NCBI GenBank assembly: GCA_015484555.1
Contig: WFMZ01000020.1
Location: 1 to 53,912, forward strand
Source: Hydrogenovibrio sp.
GTDB lineage: Bacteria; Pseudomonadota; Gammaproteobacteria; Thiomicrospirales; Thiomicrospiraceae
Direction: 5' to 3'
DNA length: 53,912 nucleotides
The notes below the pieces were generated by a model. It did no database searches. It saw only the letters and a program-made list of their open reading frames with translations, and was not told the DNA's origin. The position numbers and the translations under genes are program-made. Of the stretch, positions 758-52,406 are shown in pieces. Numbering within the stretch: the stretch's first letter is position 1; each line of letters begins with the position of its first letter.

Positions 758-1777
758 CTAGTGACTCTGTTGGTTTAATTTAGCCACTTTACAGGCTAAT
801 TCCATCATACGAACCACATAACCAATTTCATTGTCATACCAAGCCAGTAATTTTAATTGCGTGCCATTCACGACCATCGTTGAGGGTGCATCAATCACCG
901 CAGAACAGGTTTCCCCTTCATAGTCTACCGATACCAATGGACGAGTTTCAAACCCTAAAATATTTTTTAAATAAGTTTGTGAAGCAGTTTCTAACAAGCC
1001 ATTCACTTCTTCAACCGTGGTCGGTTGTTTTAATTCCAATACTAAATCGGTTAAAGAGGCGTTCATTAAAGGAACACGCACAGCCACGCCATTCAGCAAA
1101 CCATTTAAGTCAGGAAAAATGCCGCCAATCGCTTTTGCCGAACCGGTCGTCGTTGGAATTAATGATTCAAATGACGCTCTCGCACGGCGTAAATCTTTAT
1201 GCCCATGATCGACTACTTTTTGGGTATTGGTACGATCGTGCATAGACGTAATCATGCCATGCTTAATGCCTAGCTTTTCATGAATGACCTTAATCACTGG
1301 TGCAATGCAATTGGTGGTACAAGACGCTGCGGTAATCAAAGGATCTTGTCCTGCTTCAAAAATATTATCATTCACGCCCATCACAATATTTTTAATACCC
1401 TCTTTCATGGGTGCAGCAACAATCACTTGCTTCACACCCTGGTCAAAATAAGGTTGAACATCAGTTGTATCTCTAAAAACACCGGTTGCTTCAATCACAA
1501 CATCAACGCCTAAAGCACCCCAATCAAAATCTTCAATTTTTTGACAAGAGGAATAGCCAATGGTTTTCTCTTGAATTTTCATCGCGCCGGCTTCCACCGT
1601 TACATCATGCTGCCAACGACCATGAGCAGAATCAAAATGAAGTAAATGTGCCGAGCCAACAACATCCGTTGCGGTTTCATTAATATGAACAAATTCCACA
1701 CCCGGCCAATCAAAGGATTCTCTTAAGGCTAAACGCCCCATTCGACCAAAACCATTAATCGCGACTTTAATACTCAT
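758..1777 (-). CDS. gap: ArsJ-associated glyceraldehyde-3-phosphate dehydrogenase
   Basis: A 339-residue type I GAPDH. In ArsJ systems this enzyme uses arsenate in place of phosphate and makes unstable 1-arseno-3-phosphoglycerate, which ArsJ expels. NAD-binding motif INGFGRMGR lies at residues 7-15; the catalytic cysteine is C153 in ASCTTNC and the partner histidine H180 in [10 protein letters not shown]. The [13 protein letters not shown] stretch and the short acidic N-terminal half fit the ArsJ-linked subgroup better than glycolytic GapA. It is the first gene of a two-gene unit with arsJ directly downstream. An AAAGGA ribosome binding site precedes the ATG. A glycolytic role cannot be excluded from sequence alone, but the neighbour makes the arsenic role much more likely. 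Confidence 0.9.
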
Positions 1778-1853
1778 TATGCTGATTCCTTTAGCTGTAA
1801 ATTCTTAACATTTATTAACTGTTTTTACGTAAAATAGATTTTTAATAGGGTTA

Positions 1854-1859
1854 ATTATA
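1854..1859 (-). promoter_or_regulatory. -10 box for gap-arsJ
   Basis: A perfect TATAAT on the minus strand, 77 bases upstream of the GAPDH start. No good -35 hexamer lies at the right distance, as is common for promoters that need an activator or are repressed. An arsenate-responsive ArsR site is expected in this divergent region, but I could not pick out a convincing dyad. Confidence 0.45.
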
Positions 1860-1923
1860 GTCATTAATTGTGACAAACAGATGAAATATACGGTGTGTGA
1901 TAGCCAAAATAAGTGAATTCTTA

Positions 1924-1929
1924 TATAAT
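1924..1929 (+). promoter_or_regulatory. -10 box for mqo
   Basis: A perfect TATAAT on the plus strand 24-29 bases before the first ATG of mqo. The -35 region is weak. If used, the transcript would start near 1936 with a leader of under 20 bases to the first ATG, or about 29 to the second. Confidence 0.5.
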
Positions 1930-1952
1930 CCCCCTTCTTCAAATCCTACGAT

Positions 1953-3311
1953 ATGGAAAATAAGATGCAAAACAGAGACTTTGACGTAATTATTATTGGT
2001 GGCGGTATTACCGGCACAGCGCTGACTTATGTGCTGTCTAAATATACTGACGTTGAAAGTATTTGTATTCTTGAAAAATATGGTTCGCTAGCCCCCTTAA
2101 ACTCTAACGCGACTAGCAACAGCCAAACACTACACTGTGGCGACATTGAAACCAACTATACACTTGCCAAAGCTAGCCAAGTTAAACACACTGCCAACAT
2201 GCTGGTGAACTACAAAAAGCAAGTTGAGAAAAATGACTTTTTGTACAAATACCCTAAAATGATTTTGGCGGTGGGTGATGATGAATGTGAGCGTCTAGAA
2301 AAACGCTATGCCGAGTTCAACGAAGCCTTTCCCTATATGGAATTATGGGATGCTGAAAAAATTGCTGAAATTGAACCTAAAGTCGCTTTAAAAAATGGCA
2401 AACCTCGCCCTGAAAAAATTATGGCGAGTGGTTGTACTGATGAATATTGTGCCGTTAATTTCGGCAACCTATCTCGTTCATTTATTGACAGTGCTCGTAA
2501 AAATAACAAAAACATTCAGGTATCTCTTAGCTCTGAAGTAACTCATATTGTTAAAATTGAAGAGGGTTATGAGTGCCAAACCGCACAAGGTAGCTTTCGC
2601 GCCAAATTTGTTGTTGTTTCAGCGGGGGCACATAGTTTATTGCTTGCTAACCAATTAGGGCATGGCTTAGATCTCTCTATTTTGCCAATGGCGGGAAGCT
2701 TCTACTTTATCCCTAGCACGCTTAACGGTAAAGTCTACACCATGCAAAACGACAAACTTCCTTTTGCCGCCTTACATGGTGACCCCGACTTAACCGAAGC
2801 CAATAAAACACGCCTGGGGCCAACAGCCCTCATGATGCCAAAACTAGAAAGATACACAGGCGGCACTTACCTTGATTTCTGGAAGAGCTTAAAGTTAGAT
2901 AAAAAAGTGGTTAAGGTCTTTTGGGATTTAATGAAAGACAGCACCATTCGCAACTATATTTTCCGTAACTTCTTATTTGAAGTACCTTGGCTGAACAAAA
3001 AATTATTTGTCAAAGATGCACAAAAAATCATTCCAGATTTAACCGCTAATGACCTTACCTATGCAAAAGGTTATGGTGGTATTCGCCCACAAGTTATTGA
3101 TAAAACAGAAATGGTCTTAAAGCTAGGCGAAGCCAGCATTGTGCCTAATAAAGACCCTATTATCTTCAATATGACGCCTTCACCAGGGGCAACGACTTGT
3201 CTTGGTAATGCCTACCGAGATGCAAAGATAATTTGCGAACGTTTAGATATTCCGTTCAATAGAGAAGACTTTATTAACGAATTACTAGACGGAAAAGACT
3301 TAGATATTTAA
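1953..3311 (+). CDS. mqo: Malate:quinone oxidoreductase, epsilonproteobacterial type
   Basis: Peripheral membrane FAD enzyme that oxidises malate to oxaloacetate and passes electrons to quinone. The 452-residue length is that of the short Helicobacter/Campylobacter form, not the roughly 500-550 residues of the E. coli type. The Rossmann FAD motif GGGITGTAL is at residues 16-24; SNSQTLHCGDIETNYT, PMAGSFYFIP, LPFAALHGDPD, GPTALMMPKLER and FNMTPSPGATTCL follow in family order. The first ATG (1953) has almost no leader; a second in-frame ATG at 1965 follows a GGAAAA and may be the true start. It stands alone, divergent from the arsenic pair. Presumably it serves the citric acid cycle branch with gltA elsewhere in the window (inference). 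Confidence 0.9.
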   Translation: MENKMQNRDFDVIIIGGGITGTALTYVLSKYTDVESICILEKYGSLAPLNSNATSNSQTLHCGDIETNYTLAKASQVKHTANMLVNYKKQVEKNDFLYKYPKMILAVGDDECERLEKRYAEFNEAFPYMELWDAEKIAEIEPKVALKNGKPRPEKIMASGCTDEYCAVNFGNLSRSFIDSARKNNKNIQVSLSSEVTHIVKIEEGYECQTAQGSFRAKFVVVSAGAHSLLLANQLGHGLDLSILPMAGSFYFIPSTLNGKVYTMQNDKLPFAALHGDPDLTEANKTRLGPTALMMPKLERYTGGTYLDFWKSLKLDKKVVKVFWDLMKDSTIRNYIFRNFLFEVPWLNKKLFVKDAQKIIPDLTANDLTYAKGYGGIRPQVIDKTEMVLKLGEASIVPNKDPIIFNMTPSPGATTCLGNAYRDAKIICERLDIPFNREDFINELLDGKDLDI

Positions 3312-3334
3312 GCACTTACTTAGTAGAACAAATA

Positions 3335-4519
3335 TTACTGCATGAATTCAGCGCAGACAATTTTAGATAGTTGCTCTGCACTTAATAGGTGATTACCCGC
3401 CTGTCGGCTTTTCACAATTTTTTGACTACTGATCTCAACCAAACAAGCCACCAATTCAAAACACGCTAAACCTTCCCAACCTTCATTCTCGACTGCTAAC
3501 TTATTCGGCTTATTCGACGAACCTTGATCTAACGGAGCCTGCCAAGCAAACAACTTAACTTCTCCTTGCTGAATAGATCTCCAGTCTGTCACCCAAGCAT
3601 GTTGTTGAGCATCTGAAAGCTGCTGGCAAGCTTCAAGCGTATCAACCACCTGAATACCAGCATTTAAGAAAGAAAGTGGCGTATTTAGCACAAGCGTCTC
3701 TTCTTGAAAGCCTGCCCAACGACGATAAAGCTGTTCTACTTCAACCAAGTAACGAGCTTGCCCAATAAGCGCCATCTCATCTTCTGGCAGCGCCAGGTAA
3801 TCAGCCAAGTCAAATGCATCTGCCAGTAACGACATCATTGCCTGACACTGCATAGGACGACAAGGCAGTTGCGCCAAGCTTTGGTGCAGGCGACACCCAA
3901 TTAAATTAGGGAAGTGAGCCGCCAAAGTAAGCGCCATCGAGTTAATACGGGGCAAGCTTTGTAAACTGCCCAAACGCTGTTCATCTAAAATACAAATATC
4001 GACCATATCCGAAATTTGGTCATTCACCAAACGTAACCTAAGCTTGCTTAAAAAACGAACCGTTTCAGCCTTAGCTGGCCAGCCCACTTGCTCTGCTATC
4101 AATGTTCTTTTACCAGACAATAAGGCAACCACTTCAGACTCTTCTAAACTAGAAGACACTAGCCTCCATGCCAATAACGGAGAATGATCTAACAGTTCAA
4201 GTATTTGAGGATAACGCCCAGCATAATGCAGTAGTGTTAATTGATGGCTCGGAAATAAAGCACAGCTTTCAACCACCCAAGCAGGGATTTGCTTGCGCCA
4301 AAAAGCCAGCTGAGAAAAGTTAGACCAGGTTAAGAGGGTGATATCGTCAGGATAAGCAGGAATTGCCAAAGTGGACATCATCATCTTTTCCCAACTGGGA
4401 ATAGATAGAATATTGTATTCAGGCGCCCACTTGCGGCAATCTACCCATAGCGTTTGCGCTTCTTCATCCCAGTAGCAGCTTTTAGCCAACTGCTGCTGGA
4501 CAATTTTAGGCAACGCCAA
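3335..4519 (-). CDS. Uncharacterised 394-residue protein
   Basis: I do not recognise this protein. It has no signal peptide, no clear membrane segment and no familiar catalytic motif. It is rich in leucine, tryptophan and glutamine, with helical leucine patterns such as LLHYAGRYPQILELLDHSPL and several tryptophans near the N-terminus (CYWDEE, LWVDCRKWAPEY). That suggests a soluble, mostly alpha-helical fold. Its start lies only six bases after the stop of rlmI on the same strand, so the two are probably one transcript. It ends 23 bases from the convergent mqo gene. Codon use looks like that of its neighbours. Confidence 0.7.
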   Translation of the reverse strand: MALPKIVQQQLAKSCYWDEEAQTLWVDCRKWAPEYNILSIPSWEKMMMSTLAIPAYPDDITLLTWSNFSQLAFWRKQIPAWVVESCALFPSHQLTLLHYAGRYPQILELLDHSPLLAWRLVSSSLEESEVVALLSGKRTLIAEQVGWPAKAETVRFLSKLRLRLVNDQISDMVDICILDEQRLGSLQSLPRINSMALTLAAHFPNLIGCRLHQSLAQLPCRPMQCQAMMSLLADAFDLADYLALPEDEMALIGQARYLVEVEQLYRRWAGFQEETLVLNTPLSFLNAGIQVVDTLEACQQLSDAQQHAWVTDWRSIQQGEVKLFAWQAPLDQGSSNKPNKLAVENEGWEGLACFELVACLVEISSQKIVKSRQAGNHLLSAEQLSKIVCAEFMQ

Positions 4520-4525
4520 GCTGTT

Positions 4526-5728
4526 TTACCAAGCTTTACTAACGCGGAAGAAGAAAGTTTTAATGTATTCTGTTTCAGGAATAGCGGGGTGAACAGGATG
4601 ATCAGGCGCTTGGTGAGCTTGATCAAATAACTGAACCGTTCTGTCTAAATGACGAGCCGCTAATTGAACTTGGTTTAATAAAGCATCTCTAGACATATGG
4701 TGAGAACAAGACGCTGATACTAAGATACCGTCCGTTTCTACCAAACGAATGGCAAGCTCATTAATACGGCGGTAACCTTCTGAACCAGAACGAATATCTT
4801 TCTTACGTTTTACAAAAGCCGGCGGATCAATAATCACCACATCATACTTATTCCCTTCTGAAATAAGCACCTTTAAAACATCAAAAGCATTCCCTTCATA
4901 GGTAGTTACCTTATCAGCCACACCGTTCAAGGCAGCATTTCTGTCAACACCATCTAAAGCACTGCTTGATGAATCAACACAAACCACTTCACTTGCCCCC
5001 GCAACCGCAGCTTCAAGACCCCAACCACCTAGGTAGCTGAATACGTCTAATACACGCTTACCCTTCACCATTTCTTGTAAACGCTTACGGCCTAAACGGT
5101 GGTCGTAGAACCAACCTGTTTTTTGCCCACCAGAAACAGGGATATTAAATTTAGTACCATTTTCTTCTATTAGCACTTCTTCAGGTAATTCACCAATAGC
5201 CACTTCTTCATACATTGGCAAACCTTCTAGCTTACGACTAGAGGTTTCATTACTGTAAATTAAAGTACGAGGGTGGTATAGATTTTCAATGGTCGTGGTA
5301 ATGACATCTTTCATCTTTTCCATACCAGCCGTGGTAATTTGTGCAACAAATACATCACCAAAACGGTCTATCACTAAACCTGGTAGTCCGTCTGCATCAC
5401 CAAAAACAAGGCGATAATAAGGCTCGTCAAAACTTAACTCTCGTAAAGTCTGTGCCGCTTGAATACGCTTTTTAATAAAGCCTTGATTAAATCTCGCCTT
5501 GGCACTGCGACTAATAATACGACCACAAATTAAAGTATTAGGGTTGATGTAAGCTACCCCAATCACTTTACCATTTGAAGCCTCTACGGTAACCACTTCA
5601 CCCGCTTCAAACGACTTTAAAGGCGTTTCTTTAATGTCGACTTCATTACTAAAAATCCACACGTGCCCCTGCTTAATTCTGCGTTCTTCATTTTTCTTTA
5701 AACGAATAGATTTGTAGTTCTCTGACAT
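4526..5728 (-). CDS. rlmI: 23S rRNA (cytosine-5-)-methyltransferase, RlmI-like
   Basis: S-adenosylmethionine-dependent rRNA methyltransferase of the RlmI family; E. coli RlmI makes m5C1962 in 23S rRNA. An N-terminal PUA domain (GHVWIFSNEVD, residues 21-31) is followed by the RlmI domain (GQKTGWFYDHR, 201-211). The Rossmann SAM site is VLDVFSYLGGWG (226-237), motif IV is DPPAF (301-305), and the cysteine of SASCSHHMSR (C341) is the expected catalytic nucleophile. The 400-residue length is typical. The ATG at 5728 directly begins the PUA sequence. The unknown gene behind it is probably translated from the same message. Confidence 0.88.
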   Translation of the reverse strand: MSENYKSIRLKKNEERRIKQGHVWIFSNEVDIKETPLKSFEAGEVVTVEASNGKVIGVAYINPNTLICGRIISRSAKARFNQGFIKKRIQAAQTLRELSFDEPYYRLVFGDADGLPGLVIDRFGDVFVAQITTAGMEKMKDVITTTIENLYHPRTLIYSNETSSRKLEGLPMYEEVAIGELPEEVLIEENGTKFNIPVSGGQKTGWFYDHRLGRKRLQEMVKGKRVLDVFSYLGGWGLEAAVAGASEVVCVDSSSSALDGVDRNAALNGVADKVTTYEGNAFDVLKVLISEGNKYDVVIIDPPAFVKRKKDIRSGSEGYRRINELAIRLVETDGILVSASCSHHMSRDALLNQVQLAARHLDRTVQLFDQAHQAPDHPVHPAIPETEYIKTFFFRVSKAW

Positions 5729-5811
5729 GATATGTCCTTAAAGTAGGTGATTAAATTATTAGGTGTTCTTAAAGCTTTGACAAGGGGCTATCTTAAATCT
5801 CAAGAGTATCG

Positions 5812-6228
5812 CTACTCTTCATCTTCACTCTCATACGACAGAGGGCGTTCAATATAGTCGGCATACTCTGCATCATCCATCAAATCGTCCATTTCATTCA
5901 TATCATGCGCAGTCAGCTTAAATAGCCAACCACCATCATAAGGCTCCATATTAATTAAACTAGGCTGATCAAACAGTGCTTCATTGGCCTCGATCACTTC
6001 GCCACTAATGGGCGCTAATATATCTAAATGAAGTCGCTCAGCCACCAATGCCATGGCGGTATCATCTACGGCCAAGTCGGTGGTTTCTTTAGGCAGGTAA
6101 ACTTCTAATATTTCACCTGAAGATTCTTGAGCATAGTCAGTAATACCGACAACAGCATCACCTGCTTCATCAAAGTAAACCCAAATATGCGCTTCGGTAT
6201 ATTTTAAATGGCTAGGAAGAATGCTCAC
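5812..6228 (-). CDS. GcvH-like protein lacking the lipoyl lysine
   Basis: A 138-residue protein with the H-protein (biotinyl/lipoyl hammerhead) fold. LKYTEAHIWV, VGITDYAQESSGEI, LAPISGEVIEAN and EPYDGGWLFKL line up closely with E. coli GcvH. In GcvH a lysine sits a few residues before the APVSGE turn and carries lipoate. Here that stretch reads LVAERLHLDILAPISGE, with arginine (CGA codon) or glutamate at the site, and no lysine occurs between residues 47 and 104. It therefore cannot be lipoylated in the standard way. No glycine cleavage genes (gcvT, gcvP) or lipoate ligase are nearby. The acidic tail (SYESEDEE) is also unlike GcvH. A non-catalytic binding or regulatory role is possible; the function is unknown. 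Confidence 0.8.
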   Translation of the reverse strand: MSILPSHLKYTEAHIWVYFDEAGDAVVGITDYAQESSGEILEVYLPKETTDLAVDDTAMALVAERLHLDILAPISGEVIEANEALFDQPSLINMEPYDGGWLFKLTAHDMNEMDDLMDDAEYADYIERPLSYESEDEE

Positions 6229-10196: not shown

Positions 10197-10233
10197 CTTG
10201 AAAGCCAAAAATCGCCAGGGGTGGGTACCTGGC
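10197..10233 (+). repeat. Dispersed palindromic repeat, half copy 1
   Basis: Contains the complete 18-base core AAAAATCGCCAGGGGTGG, followed by the variant GTACC ending. GCCAGG and CCTGGC inside it form a short hairpin. It lies between tRNA-Met and the 3' end of ychF, just 12 bases from the ychF stop. See the prmC copy for the family description. Confidence 0.85.
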
Positions 10234-18422: not shown

Positions 18423-19316
18423 ATGCAAATATCTGAAGCTATTCAGCAAGCCCGCGATGCTTTAAGTCAAGCGGGACTTAAAGATTCGCCAAAGCTAGAT
18501 GCAGAACTGTTACTGGCACACGCCCTTCAAACCAATAGAACCTTTCTATTTACCTGGCCGGAAAGAGTCATTCCTGATGCAACTTACCAAGCCTTTCAAG
18601 ACTCCCTAAACCGACGTCAACAAGGCGAACCTATCGCTTATATTTTAGGCTATCAAGAATTTTGGGGGCTTGAATTTCACGTAAACGAACACACCTTAAT
18701 TCCCCGTCCAGATACCGAGATACTGGTAGAAGAAGCTTTATCGAAAGCCAAAAATCACCAGGGGTGGTGTCAAGATAGCAGACCACCCCTGGCGTTTATG
18801 CCCTTTAGGGTAGTTTTTAAGGTTCTCGATTTAGGTACTGGCTCTGGCGCGATTATTTGCGCTTTTAAGCATGACTTTCCTGACTGCGAAGCCACCGCCG
18901 TTGACTTTAGCGCCCCCGCGCTAGCAATGGCTCAAAAAAATGCAGAACATTTAGGGTTAGACATTGAATTTTTAGAAAGCAACTGGTTTAGTGGCGTTAA
19001 AGATAGACGTTTTAGCCTTATTATCAGCAACCCACCTTACATTGAAGAAGACGATAGCCATTTAAGTGAAGGCGATGTACGCTTCGAACCCTCAAGTGCC
19101 TTAACCTCTGGCACCAGTGGTTTAGAAGATATTAGTCTTATCATCAAACAGGCCAAAAACCATTTAGAAACAAATGGTTGGCTGTTAATAGAACATGGTT
19201 ATAATCAAGCAGAAGCCGTGCAAGCCATCTTTAAAGCAGAAGGCTACCAAGCCATTGAAACCAAAGTAGATTATGGCAATAACCCCAGAATTACCTTTGG
19301 TCAGTTTGTAAATTAA
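18423..19316 (+). CDS. prmC: Release factor glutamine methyltransferase with in-frame repeat insertion
   Basis: Methylates the GGQ glutamine of release factors 1 and 2 with S-adenosylmethionine. The N-terminal helical domain ends with the LIPRPDTEILVEEAL stretch. The SAM site LDLGTGSGA starts at residue 135, and the catalytic NPPY is N203-Y206. ATG at 18423 was chosen over a TTG six bases upstream, giving 297 residues, about 20 more than E. coli PrmC. The excess lies between VEEAL and VLDLG (about residues 107-133), exactly where a copy of the dispersed palindromic repeat sits (18742-18820). The frame is kept and the conserved motifs are intact, so the protein is probably active. Confidence 0.95.
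   Translation: MQISEAIQQARDALSQAGLKDSPKLDAELLLAHALQTNRTFLFTWPERVIPDATYQAFQDSLNRRQQGEPIAYILGYQEFWGLEFHVNEHTLIPRPDTEILVEEALSKAKNHQGWCQDSRPPLAFMPFRVVFKVLDLGTGSGAIICAFKHDFPDCEATAVDFSAPALAMAQKNAEHLGLDIEFLESNWFSGVKDRRFSLIISNPPYIEEDDSHLSEGDVRFEPSSALTSGTSGLEDISLIIKQAKNHLETNGWLLIEHGYNQAEAVQAIFKAEGYQAIETKVDYGNNPRITFGQFVN
18742..18820 (+). repeat. Dispersed palindromic repeat inside prmC (full copy 2)
   Basis: A 79-base element matching the intergenic copy at 27461-27540 end to end, with changes in the loop and right arm. The left arm AAAAATCACCAGGGGTGG differs from the core by one base; the right arm is CCACCCCTGGCG; the tail is CCCTTTAGGGTAGTTTTTAA. Arms pair to give a stem of at least 11 bases. Read in the prmC frame it has no stop and encodes SKAKNHQGWC then QDSRPPLAFMPFRVVFK. 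The right arm is of the same subtype as the copy at 44361. This is an insertion into a coding region that preserved the reading frame. Confidence 0.9.
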
Positions 19317-27460: not shown

Positions 27461-27540
27461 CGAAAGCCAAAAATCGCCAGGGGTGGTCTAACTTTTCAGA
27501 CCACCCCTGGCGATTTTTGTGCTTTAGGGTAAATTTTTAA
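27461..27540 (+). repeat. Dispersed palindromic repeat, full copy 3 (reference copy)
   Basis: The most regular copy. The left arm contains AAAAATCGCCAGGGGTGG, the right arm is its exact complement CCACCCCTGGCGATTTTT, and the two pair over more than 20 bases around an eight-base loop. The tail is GCTTTAGGGTAAATTTTTAA. It lies between the convergent VF530 gene and parC, where its strong hairpin might also work as a transcription terminator in either direction. Confidence 0.92.
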
Positions 27541-33221: not shown

Positions 33222-33257
33222 GGTACCCACCCCTGGCGATTTTTGGGTTTTAAACCA
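33222..33257 (-). repeat. Dispersed palindromic repeat, half copy 4
   Basis: Minus-strand core AAAAATCGCCAGGGGTGG with the GGTACC variant ending, as in copy 1 but inverted. It lies in the divergent gap between parE and pdxH, 39 bases before the parE start. Confidence 0.85.
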
Positions 33258-41896: not shown

Positions 41897-43180
41897 GTGA
41901 AACTGCCGTCTTATCAAACATTACTACAACTTGGGTTAACTATTTTTATAGGCTTCCTCTCCTTTTCTACCCAAGCAAGTTTACCCTTTGAACGTCACAC
42001 GCTACCACTCCCTAAGCTAGACAATTCTTACCTTTCGCCAGCACCCACTCATCAGAAATCTGAGCCTCACAACTGGACACTACATACAATCAAGATTCCA
42101 AAATTTGGTTCCCTTTCAGGTGCATTAGATTCTGCGGGGATTCGTAAGGGAGTCCTCTTCCAAATCAATAAAATTCCTCACAGTAATTTACTCACTCAAT
42201 TACAAGTGGGCGATACCCTAAAAATTTGGACCAATGATCATGATGATTTAATGAAAATTGTCTACCCTAAAAACCACTCGACTACCTACCAATTAGACTC
42301 GGTTAAAGACGGTTTTAAAATTAAAATTATTAAAAAGAAAACAGATATTAAAGTGGTCTCTACAAGCGGAGAGATTAAGCACTCTTTTTATTTAAGTGGC
42401 AAAGCAGCTGGTTTAAGTGCTAAAACAATTATGGCATTGGCAGATATATTTTCATGGGAAATAGATTTTATTCGCCAACTACGTCCCGGCGATCCCTTTA
42501 AGGTAATTTATGAAAAGAAATATATTGATGGTAACTACATTGGTGATGGCCGAATTCTAGCAGCCGAAGTCACCACTAACCATGGCATAAAACATTCTGC
42601 ATTTTTATTAACCGATAAAAATAATAAAACCATTGGTTATTACAATGCAAAAAAACGTAATTTACGAAAAGCCTTTTTACGCAACCCTGTCGACTACGTT
42701 CGAATCACTTCTCGTTACAAGCCTAAACGTTACCACCCTGTTTTAAAAAAATGGCGAGCGCATAGAGGCGTTGATTATGGTGGCCCTGTCGGCACCCCTA
42801 TTCATGCCACGGGCGATGGGCAAATTATTCGCCGTGGCTGGAGCAAAAGTTACGGACGTGTTATCTACATAAAACATGCAGGAAAATACACTACCGTTTA
42901 CGCCCATATGTCACGTTTTGGAAAATACAAAAAATATCAATGGGTTAAACAGGGCAATATTATCGGCTATATTGGTTCTTCCGGTTTAGCCACTGGCCCT
43001 CATTTGCATTATGAGTTTCGTAAAAATGGGCGCCATATTGACCCTTTAAAAGTCAAGTTTCCTGATGCCGGCCCAGTCCCTAAAAAGTATCGAGCTAAAT
43101 TTATTAAGTTTTCGACCTTAATGTCTGCACAGCTCGATCGACTTTCAACCAAAACAAAATTGGCAAAAAACTTTGAATAA
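41897..43180 (+). CDS. M23 family murein DD-endopeptidase (MepM-like)
   Basis: Zinc peptidase that cuts peptidoglycan cross-links in the periplasm. The N-terminus is a signal anchor (TIFIGFLSFSTQAS). A middle OapA/LysM-like region leads to the LytM domain: zinc ligands H289 and D293 in HRGVDYGGP and H371 in HLHYEFRKNG, with H369 beside it. Length 427 residues. Start is GTG at 41897, the only sensible start that includes the signal. It overlaps the anmK start. Confidence 0.9.
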   Translation: MKLPSYQTLLQLGLTIFIGFLSFSTQASLPFERHTLPLPKLDNSYLSPAPTHQKSEPHNWTLHTIKIPKFGSLSGALDSAGIRKGVLFQINKIPHSNLLTQLQVGDTLKIWTNDHDDLMKIVYPKNHSTTYQLDSVKDGFKIKIIKKKTDIKVVSTSGEIKHSFYLSGKAAGLSAKTIMALADIFSWEIDFIRQLRPGDPFKVIYEKKYIDGNYIGDGRILAAEVTTNHGIKHSAFLLTDKNNKTIGYYNAKKRNLRKAFLRNPVDYVRITSRYKPKRYHPVLKKWRAHRGVDYGGPVGTPIHATGDGQIIRRGWSKSYGRVIYIKHAGKYTTVYAHMSRFGKYKKYQWVKQGNIIGYIGSSGLATGPHLHYEFRKNGRHIDPLKVKFPDAGPVPKKYRAKFIKFSTLMSAQLDRLSTKTKLAKNFE

Positions 43181-44297
43181 TCGATCTGATTATTATATCG
43201 GCATCATGTCTGGCACCAGCTTAGATGGTATTGATATTGTCATCGTATCCTTTCAAAATGAGCAACCCACTCTACACCACTTTGAAACTTTGCCATATGA
43301 CTTAGCGCTACAAACATCTTTACATGAGCTTAACTTAACCCAACAGATTCAACTACCTGACCTAGCAAAACTAGAACAGCAGTTAGGTAGCGCTTATGCT
43401 TCAGCGGTCAATCAAGTGCTTAAGCAACAAAACATACTGCCAAACCAAGTTTTAGCCATTGGTTGTCACGGACAAACTATTTTTCATGATCCAAATATTC
43501 CCATGAGCTTACAAATTGGCCACCCTGCTTTTATTGCAAAACAAACCGGTATTCGTACCGTTGCCGACTTTAGAGTGGATGATATGGCATGCAATGGCCA
43601 GGGCGCCCCTTTAGCGCCTGCGTTTCATCAAATTATATTTAAATTAAACCAACCTACCGCTATTGTGAACATTGGTGGCATTGCCAACATTTCAATCTTT
43701 AATGACGGCAAAATAACGGGCTTTGATACAGGCCCTGGTAATGGTTTAATGGATGAAATATGCCAAACTTACTTCAACCAAGCCTATGATGCTAATGGGA
43801 ATATTGCTGCCAAAAATAGCGTCAACAAAGCCCTGCTACATCAATTAAAGCAACATCCTTATTTTGCACAGCCTGCGCCTAAAAGCACCGGACGAGATAT
43901 TTTTAACTTGAATTGGTTAACAGAACAACTAGCACTAACCGGTTTAACGACACTCACCAAAAAATCTACCCTAAAGAGCATAAAGCCAGGAGTAGTCCTT
44001 GCCACCCTTAACCAGTTAACAGCAGAAACGATTGCCGAGGCCGTTCAGCAACACAATATTCAAAATATGATTGTGTGCGGTGGTGGCGCTGAAAACCAAA
44101 CGTTATTGAATAACCTAATAATCCTAATGGATTGCCCTGTGCAATCTAGTCAAGCACAAGCGATTAACCCACACGCTATTGAAGCCATGATGTGTGCTTG
44201 GCTGGCACAACAACGTTGCCAAAACAAACCCATTCAACTAACGCATATTACTGGTGCCGGTAAAGATGCTATTTTAGGCGGTATTTGGGAAGCTTAA
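43173..44297 (+). CDS. anmK: Anhydro-N-acetylmuramic acid kinase
   Basis: Phosphorylates and opens the anhydro sugar freed during cell-wall turnover so that it can be re-used. IGIMSGTSLDGIDIV near the start is the ATP-binding signature; GQGAPLAPAFH, NIGGIANIS, FDTGPGNGLMDE and GGGAENQTLL follow. Length 374 residues. The start is TTG at 43173, eight bases inside the M23 peptidase gene, so the two are probably coupled. Release and recycling of cell-wall material fit one unit. Confidence 0.94.
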   Translation: MNNRSDYYIGIMSGTSLDGIDIVIVSFQNEQPTLHHFETLPYDLALQTSLHELNLTQQIQLPDLAKLEQQLGSAYASAVNQVLKQQNILPNQVLAIGCHGQTIFHDPNIPMSLQIGHPAFIAKQTGIRTVADFRVDDMACNGQGAPLAPAFHQIIFKLNQPTAIVNIGGIANISIFNDGKITGFDTGPGNGLMDEICQTYFNQAYDANGNIAAKNSVNKALLHQLKQHPYFAQPAPKSTGRDIFNLNWLTEQLALTGLTTLTKKSTLKSIKPGVVLATLNQLTAETIAEAVQQHNIQNMIVCGGGAENQTLLNNLIILMDCPVQSSQAQAINPHAIEAMMCAWLAQQRCQNKPIQLTHITGAGKDAILGGIWEA

Positions 44298-44360: not shown

Positions 44361-44434
44361 AAAAAAGCCAGGAAATGAATGGCCAAACTTGGACACCACC
44401 CCTGGCGTTTATACCCTTTAGGGTAATTTTTAAG
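44361..44434 (+). repeat. Dispersed palindromic repeat, diverged full copy 5
   Basis: A decayed left arm (AAAAAAGCCAGG) and a good right arm (CCACCCCTGGCGTTTAT) with tail CCCTTTAGGGTAATTTTTAA. The right part is nearly identical to that of the prmC copy, so they form a subtype. It lies between convergent anmK and gltA. Confidence 0.8.
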
Positions 44435-45686: not shown

Positions 45687-45721
45687 TTTGAAAGCCAAAA
45701 ATCGCCAGGGGTGGTCTAACG
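45687..45721 (+). repeat. Dispersed palindromic repeat, half copy 6
   Basis: Holds the complete core AAAAATCGCCAGGGGTGG and GTCTAAC, identical to the left half of copy 3. The right half is missing. It lies in the erpA-gltA gap, 60 bases before the gltA start. Confidence 0.88.
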
Positions 45722-52373: not shown

Positions 52374-52406
52374 ATCCAAACCCAAAAATCGCCAGGGGTG
52401 GGTATC
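52374..52406 (+). repeat. Dispersed palindromic repeat, half copy 7
   Basis: Complete core AAAAATCGCCAGGGGTGG with a GTATC ending, closest to copies 1 and 4. It lies in the divergent gap between groES and the YeeE gene, 86 bases before the latter. Confidence 0.85.

Follow-up and report, generated by a model that had tools for sequence, protein, structure and literature searches.

The stretch of DNA analysed here (the window) comprises 53,912 nucleotides from Hydrogenovibrio sp. (contig WFMZ01000020.1 of assembly GCA_015484555.1), in which the open reading frame at 18423-19316 encodes a PrmC protein of 297 amino acids that matches the profile TIGR03534 with 295.5 bits (cut-off 199.1). An earlier note had described the 79 bases at 18742-18820, inside this gene, as a mobile-looking palindrome inserted in frame and matching an intergenic element at 27461-27540 along its whole length. 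The match itself was borne out: BLAST with the 80-base reference at 27461-27540 aligned query positions 1-80 to 18742-18820 at 84% identity, with an E-value of 5.4e-16 for the genome. The prmC frame indeed runs across the repeat without a stop, the NPPY motif and the GxGxG motif (here GTGSG) are intact, and the extra residues separate the N-terminal part of the protein from its SAM-binding part, as the note had it and as seen upon alignment to E. coli HemK/PrmC (1t43, a 277-residue chain, and 2b3t). The reference copy, too, is open in the prmC frame, with 26 codons read before a TAA. The repeat unit is a sharp motif of about 24 bp, AAASYYAAAAATCGCCAGGGGTGGK, that occurs either singly or in inverted, terminator-like pairs; a longer form, type B, has a tail and, within the motif, about 18 additional bases (TACCCTAAAGGGCATAAA). 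The features of the window are as follows.

18423..19316, plus strand: prmC, release factor N5-glutamine methyltransferase, 297 amino acids, with two motif copies (NCBIfam TIGR03534 and congener alignment).
18742..18767, plus strand: left half of the prmC repeat, a dialect-1 motif, CGAAAGCCAAAAATCACCAGGGGTGG; a site in place, not inserted, with CCAGGCCTGG there in 7 of 10 congeners.
18768..18818, plus strand: net insertion CQDSRPPLAFMPFRVVF, 51 nt or 17 codons, made up of the loop and of a second, inverted copy of type B together with its tail.
18783..18794, minus strand: core of the inverted second copy, reading CGCCAGGGGTGG on that strand.
18799..18818, plus strand: type-B tail, a mini-hairpin around CCCTTTAGGG followed by GTTTTT; a terminator-like pattern (18799-18812 plus tail).
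27461..27540, plus strand: reference inverted pair between convergent open reading frames, with a long perfect stem and a tail, terminator-like on both strands.
10201..10224, plus strand: single intergenic motif copy.
33227..33250, minus strand: single motif copy in a divergent intergenic region.
43959..43995, plus strand: degenerate type-B-like copy inside the open reading frame at 43173-44297.
44396..44433, minus strand: single type-B copy with an extra TACCCTAAAGGGTATAAA segment and a tail, between convergent open reading frames.
45691..45714, plus strand: single intergenic motif copy.
52378..52401, plus strand: single intergenic motif copy.

To define what had been added to prmC, we compared the gene in the window's genome (G000, 1.92 Mb) with its counterparts in ten congeners (G001-G010). 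The net insertion amounts to 17 codons (51 nt, 18768-18818) that are absent from all ten congeners; the earlier note was right that PrmC has gained residues, but the addition is smaller than the 79 bases that it described as inserted. The left 26 bases of the repeat overlie codons that are also present in the relatives (e.g. K-N-D-Q-A-W). Specifically, in seven of the ten congeners prmC contains CCAGGCCTGG at K-N-D-Q-A-W or a similar string, that is, at the codons that read K-N-H-Q-G-W in G000. Because these relatives carry their own motif at the same codons, the left half is, judged from the alignment, an old motif site with a switched spelling, and only the 51 nt are new. The segment that the note had thought might be unique to this PrmC is therefore unique in its right-hand 51 nt, but not in its left half, and the insertion of all 79 bases as a single mobile element, of the kind found in Rickettsia, is on this ground not supported. 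Nor are the relatives free of the repeat elsewhere, a combination that the note had held against insertion: they share the left half, but they carry their own dialect at other places in their genomes. In G003, G004 and G009 the prmC motif is in the genome's own spelling at a second site, where the residues (Q-A-G or Q-V-G) vary with the dialect. All 11 prmC genes contain the spelling of their own genome, and none contains any of the other three. We note that the type-B tail gives prmC a terminator-like pattern in mid-gene (18799-18818), because a T-rich run comes after the small hairpin that this tail forms.

That the repeat occurs throughout the genome, as the note supposed, was evident from searches with the 12-base core CGCCAGGGGTGG at up to one mismatch, which found 300 matches in G000 (144 forward and 156 reverse) as compared to 0 and 1 for the reversed core that served as control. 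In the ten congeners the same core was found only 1-17 times each, close to the reversed controls. Within a sample of G000 (734,077 bases from 12 of 73 contigs, 90% coding) there were 99 exact 12-mers, against an expectation of 0.10, and 19 with one mismatch. These two sets of counts exclude a chance match, the alternative that the note had considered for the prmC copy. An 18-mer, AAAAATCGCCAGGGGTGG, gave 71, 23, 11, 12 and 10 matches in this sample at 0, 1, 2, 3 and 4 mismatches, respectively, and its reversed control gave 0, 0, 0, 2 and 5; beyond these genomes, the matches listed for the 18-mer in other taxa include at least five single matches in unrelated records.

The G000 sample contains 118 sites at up to one mismatch, namely 69 single copies, 41 members of inward pairs and 8 members of outward pairs. 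Single copies have sharp edges and are informative only from about -24 to +13 around the core, where a weak A-tract, AAA, S-Y-Y, AAAAAT and the core are followed by G or T. No inverted partner lies within 90 bases of them, and the stem that a lone core can form is short (5-6 pairs). When close pairs were defined by the exact 10-base core, the G000 sample contained 17 inward, 4 outward and no direct pairs, the gap in inward pairs being 12-35 bases (12-16 in 15 of the 17); a sample of G003 contained only two inward pairs and one outward pair. Longer stems are possible in inward pairs, two of which were folded: the pair at 27461 (-58.5 kcal/mol, z-score -10.1) and the pair in prmC (-40 kcal/mol, z-score -4.9).

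Type-B copies add a second layer to this picture. At up to three mismatches, the tail pattern CTTTAGGGTAATTTTTAA matches the sample from G000 20 times, as compared to 3 times for the reversed control. An exact core is adjacent to 11 of these 20 matches and, by eye, a degraded core to about four others; there is one match in the G001 sample and none in the G003 sample. The existence of this tail family in G000, set against one and no match in the other two, shows that some copies have spread as longer pieces of 40-80 bases. In two inverted pairs, at C51:465-526 and C51:5136-5197 of G000, a further flank, GTACGCTTCTACATAACGGTAA, is held in common, which suggests a local duplication that takes in the pair. 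One type-B copy, at C51:16331-16378, sits just upstream of a translation-factor gene that looks RF3-like by eye, unless the gene is extended at its N-terminal end, in which case the copy would lie within that extension.

The tail family bears on whether the repeat is a mobile, RPE- or MITE-like palindrome able to enter genes in frame. Rickettsia palindromic elements add residues in frame to housekeeping proteins, as has happened in PrmC here, and the 17 codons found in no congener, the 20 tail matches in G000 as against one in G001 and none in G003, and four extra residues at a site in pepP (see below) are all what such an element would leave behind. We nevertheless consider this explanation unlikely. 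In prmC, the left half of the repeat was already a motif site before the insertion, so that only the right 51 nt were added; of the inward pairs in the 734-kb sample, only the one in prmC lies well within a predicted gene; and the 69 single sites among the 118 sampled are bare motifs of about 24 bp. With no flank conserved beyond about -25 to +14, these lone copies also speak against the note's single palindromic unit. Unlike Rickettsia palindromic elements, moreover, the family as a whole is a short motif with genus-wide dialects.

Copies of the core lie inside predicted genes at 26 of 115 sites in G000 (in a sample that is 90% coding), 27 of 57 in G001 and 11 of 38 in G003. Between genes, in G000, divergent regions are under-used (6 of 88 sites, as compared to 72 of 383 regions) and convergent regions are over-used (37 of 88 sites, as compared to 65 of 383 regions). 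This avoidance of divergent regions, together with the scoring of either strand of the pair at 27461-27540 as an intrinsic terminator, is what one would expect if the copies were solely intrinsic transcription terminators with a common stem sequence. That account is extremely unlikely, given that single copies, which have no long stem, make up 69 of the 118 sampled, a lone copy forming at most 5-6 pairs, and that copies in mid-gene occupy matching codons in several species; as a pure explanation, we ruled it out on the single copies and on the location of some copies in mid-gene.

A further alternative is that the copies are bound by a chromosome-organising or cell-division protein whose specificity drifts from one species to the next. 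The motif occurs hundreds of times, spaced along both strands, and its core is palindromic in seven genomes, all of which would suit such a protein. Inverted terminator-like pairs and the preference for gene ends would not, and in the G003 sample the strands are equally used (19 and 19), unlike those of polar signals; the split in the G000 sample is 49 and 66, with the leading strand not assigned. We know of no chromosome-organising system in which hundreds of sites have been respelled genome-wide inside one genus, and we regard this explanation as rather unlikely. E. coli Chi, considered as a further candidate, is at chance level. The longest motif-free stretches in the samples of G001 (323488-362517) and G003 (274977-315883) contain, by eye, the rpoBC/ribosomal-protein cluster, and the longest gap in the G000 sample contains flagellar-looking genes; with such contents, these gaps say nothing about foreign islands.

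The dialects came to light when a search of the family (62 genomes) with the 18-mer at three mismatches revealed AAAAA..CCAGGCCTGG in several congeners. Congeners carry 120-482 matches each to their respective spellings, which are CCAGGCCTGG in seven, TCTGCCAGGCTGGG in one and TCTGCCAGGTTGGG in two. For the first of these, the pattern AAAANNNCCAGGCCTGG, in which symmetric sites are counted twice (once per strand), has 358 matches in G001, 190 in G002, 120 in G005, 458 in G006, 375 in G007, 317 in G008 and 482 in G010, none in G000, G003, G004 or G009, and its reversed control has none in any of the 62 family genomes. In the other three congeners the spelling takes the form TCTGCCAGG(C/T)TGGG. 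When k-mers were counted in 400 kb of G003 with no motif presupposed, ATCTGCCAGGCTGGG ranked first among 10-mers and among 12-mers and second among 9-mers. Matches to TCTGCCAGGCTGGG at up to one mismatch number 355 in G003, 210 in G004 and 235 in G009, but three at most in each of the other 59 genomes, and the copies listed for G004 and G009 read TCTGCCAGGTTGGG, with one exception in each genome. In all three sampled genomes (G000, G001 and G003; the G001 sample is likewise 400 kb) the top 10-mer belongs to the motif of that genome, and none of the other spellings occurs. In G001, CCAGGCCTGG occurs 114 times as compared to 0.89 expected, which corresponds to 57 sites because the word is a palindrome read on both strands; in G003, CCAGGCTGGG occurs 49 times as compared to 0.39 expected. 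All spellings share one architecture: an A-tract, CCAGG, a few variable bases and TGG. Other words are strongly overrepresented as well, namely CGGATGCCG (56 copies), GTCGCTGTG (54) and CAGTGCAAA (58) in the G003 sample, and the G001 sample has 12-mers that are present 19 times in 400 kb.

Beyond the genus, the CCAGGCCTGG form has 254 matches in G061 (the sole g7 genome), 0-102 in g5 genomes and 5-48 in g6 genomes, and none in the nine genomes of g2-g4. Its presence in these other genera (g5, g6 and g7) is the reason to think that CCAGGCCTGG may be the older spelling. On an 11-row PrmC tree the spelling groups require three changes, the least possible, though the signal is modest, since 16 of 200 label shuffles score as low; the CCAGGCCTGG group has support values of 75/79.

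The prmC gene is not alone in having its motif respelled in place. We chose nine further sites of G000 from its 28 in-gene matches and compared them with five of the CCAGGCCTGG congeners; the gene names given here are our reading of the translations, prmC alone being assigned by profile. At orthologous codons CCAGGCCTGG was present in recN (4 of 5 congeners), a waaC-like gene (3 of 4), rlmL (3 of 5), ybeY (4 of 5) and hrpA (5 of 5), and no congener had a motif there in pepP, sufD, nuoL or folC (0 of 5 each). The pepP site of G000 has four extra residues, as expected from an insertion. Overall, 19 of 44 aligned cells at the nine sites contained CCAGGCCTGG, as compared to 10 of 753 control windows. 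A switch is thus seen at five of nine further sites and, with prmC, at six of the ten in-gene sites tested. The amino acids track the DNA spelling, with QAW becoming QGW and PGLV becoming PGVV. Independently of these sites, when in-gene sites of G001 were aligned to the G003 sample, the G003 spelling was found at 6 of 12 (four exact and two with one mismatch; control, 0 of 225), and the reverse comparison, from G003 to G001, gave 2 of 7 (control, 0 of 129). The corresponding small-sample comparisons with G000 found no such site, either from G000 (0 of 3 towards G001, 0 of 5 towards G003) or in reverse (0 of 3 and 0 of 1); about three of the G000 sites involved are bare 10-mers without an A-tract. 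In two of these comparisons control windows matched (4 of 93, to G003, and 4 of 19), which is explained by the different positions of the prmC motifs in G003 and G000.

These in-place sites bear on the possibility that the motif represents REP/REPIN elements mobilised by a Y1 transposase (RAYT), with single REPs, inverted REPINs and a REP class peculiar to each species. REPIN/RAYT systems number hundreds of copies, single or in inverted pairs, and fall into species-specific classes; in these respects they resemble the motif described here, which likewise forms singles and inverted pairs (with 12-35 bases between cores), is mostly intergenic in G000 and shares that genome with two Y1_Tnp genes. 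Searches with the one profile used, however, found Y1_Tnp in only 4 of the 11 genus genomes and in none of the seven others, which have 120-458 dialect matches each. In the surroundings of the two G000 genes, covering at most about 1.5 kb on each side, one gene has a degraded unit and the other a single copy, and no pair flanks either gene. Finally, five of the nine further in-gene sites, along with prmC, overlie codons at which relatives have their own motif, the spelling differing in place. An origin through RAYT is accordingly very unlikely, and as a main cause we ruled it out on the distribution of Y1_Tnp and on the in-place sites. We note that the two Y1-type transposase genes (C27:74649-74978 and C53:1367-1696; L149 and L150) have, by eye, repeated ends of another kind, CGCTACCC-like and GGGGTC-like, and that a degraded motif unit lies near one of them.

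The combination of features is reminiscent of the DNA uptake sequences of a few other bacteria. Neisseriaceae and Pasteurellaceae are the only families described as recognising their own DNA by motifs at the binding step (PMC12616744, 2025). In Neisseriaceae the uptake sequences (DUS) have dialects that follow the phylogeny, inverted pairs at terminators and intragenic sites (PMC3630211). The motif found here shares the abundance of a short word, dialects that agree with the phylogeny and have an invariant inner part, terminator-linked inverted pairs and sites inside genes, and its overlapping dyad arrangement is like that of some Neisseriaceae species (PMC3630211). It differs from DUS in sequence, the canonical 10-mer GCCGTCTGAA, the only form searched, having 0, 0 and 1 copies in three samples; in being longer, with an upstream A-tract; and in having 120-482 matches per genome rather than the 943 to nearly 6000 exact DUS per genome reported there, i.e. 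about 940 to 6000 (PMC3630211). One-mismatch DUS outnumber exact DUS (PMC3630211), whereas such forms are few here (19 as compared to 99 exact), although this is a property of Neisseriaceae DUS and not part of their definition. With the uptake signal sequences (USS) of Pasteurellaceae the motif shares a core with A/T-rich tracts, the occurrence of more than one type per family, and inverted pairs as terminators (PMC12616744), but the A-tract here is upstream of the core. The Hin- and Apl-USS (AAGTGCGGT and ACAAGCGGT) are near expectation in three genome samples. With known DUS and USS sequences at chance level, the motif belongs to neither class proper.

Taken together, these findings favour the view that the repeat is a genus-wide, DUS-like recognition signal with species-group spellings, not a transposon, and that its putative function lies in DNA uptake; we put the probability of this reading at roughly 0.6. 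It is favoured because the spelling changes genome-wide while the sites keep their codons, which is the trace expected of uptake dialects. Against it we count the 120-482 matches per genome, the small number of one-mismatch forms, the few in-gene copies in G000, the four of nine further sites at which congeners had no motif, the negative small-sample comparisons with G000, the modest tree signal and the spread of type B. ComEC is found in all 11 genus genomes, which is compatible with uptake but supports it weakly, since 10 of 14 control genomes have ComEC too. Word scans found three prepilin-like open reading frames in the G000 sample and four in the G001 sample; a word scan of the samples for RuBisCO found none.

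A DUS-like signal of this kind would work as follows. A type IV pilus DNA receptor would bind the motif, and DNA carrying the motif would be preferentially taken up and recombined. In the lineage of G000 the specificity of the receptor would have shifted, and biased uptake would have rewritten CCAGGCCTGG to CCAGGGGTGG in prmC and elsewhere. In prmC, where the old site already existed, a 51-nt piece that included a second, inverted copy and the tail of that copy would then have been added in frame, perhaps from incoming DNA that carried a pair, with the resident motif providing the short homology for recombination.

A 16S piece from the congener G002 matched 478 plasmid records; the 25 that were listed, all from gammaproteobacteria, were 80-82% identical to it over 97-98% of its length, and 29 others reached 90-95% identity. 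This comparison, together with the absence of the Neisseriaceae and Pasteurellaceae motifs, suggests that the lineage lies outside both families. In the portions of the literature covered, including work on Hydrogenovibrio/Thiomicrospira relatives, we found no report of an uptake motif in such a lineage. On balance we lean towards seeing here a further, independently evolved system for recognition of self-DNA during uptake in this apparently separate gammaproteobacterial lineage, in which four dialects would exist in one genus, a change of dialect would have rewritten sites genome-wide along with amino acids of housekeeping proteins, and a resident motif would have served as the landing point for the in-frame addition of 17 codons to PrmC. 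If this is true, there is a lineage with uptake motifs that is apparently neither Neisseriaceae nor Pasteurellaceae and that has four spellings within one genus, a natural series in which to see how the specificity of a receptor and hundreds of genomic sites change together. Such a series would also allow one to ask whether biased uptake can drive amino-acid substitutions in housekeeping proteins; in six genes the switch of spelling is already seen at matching codons.
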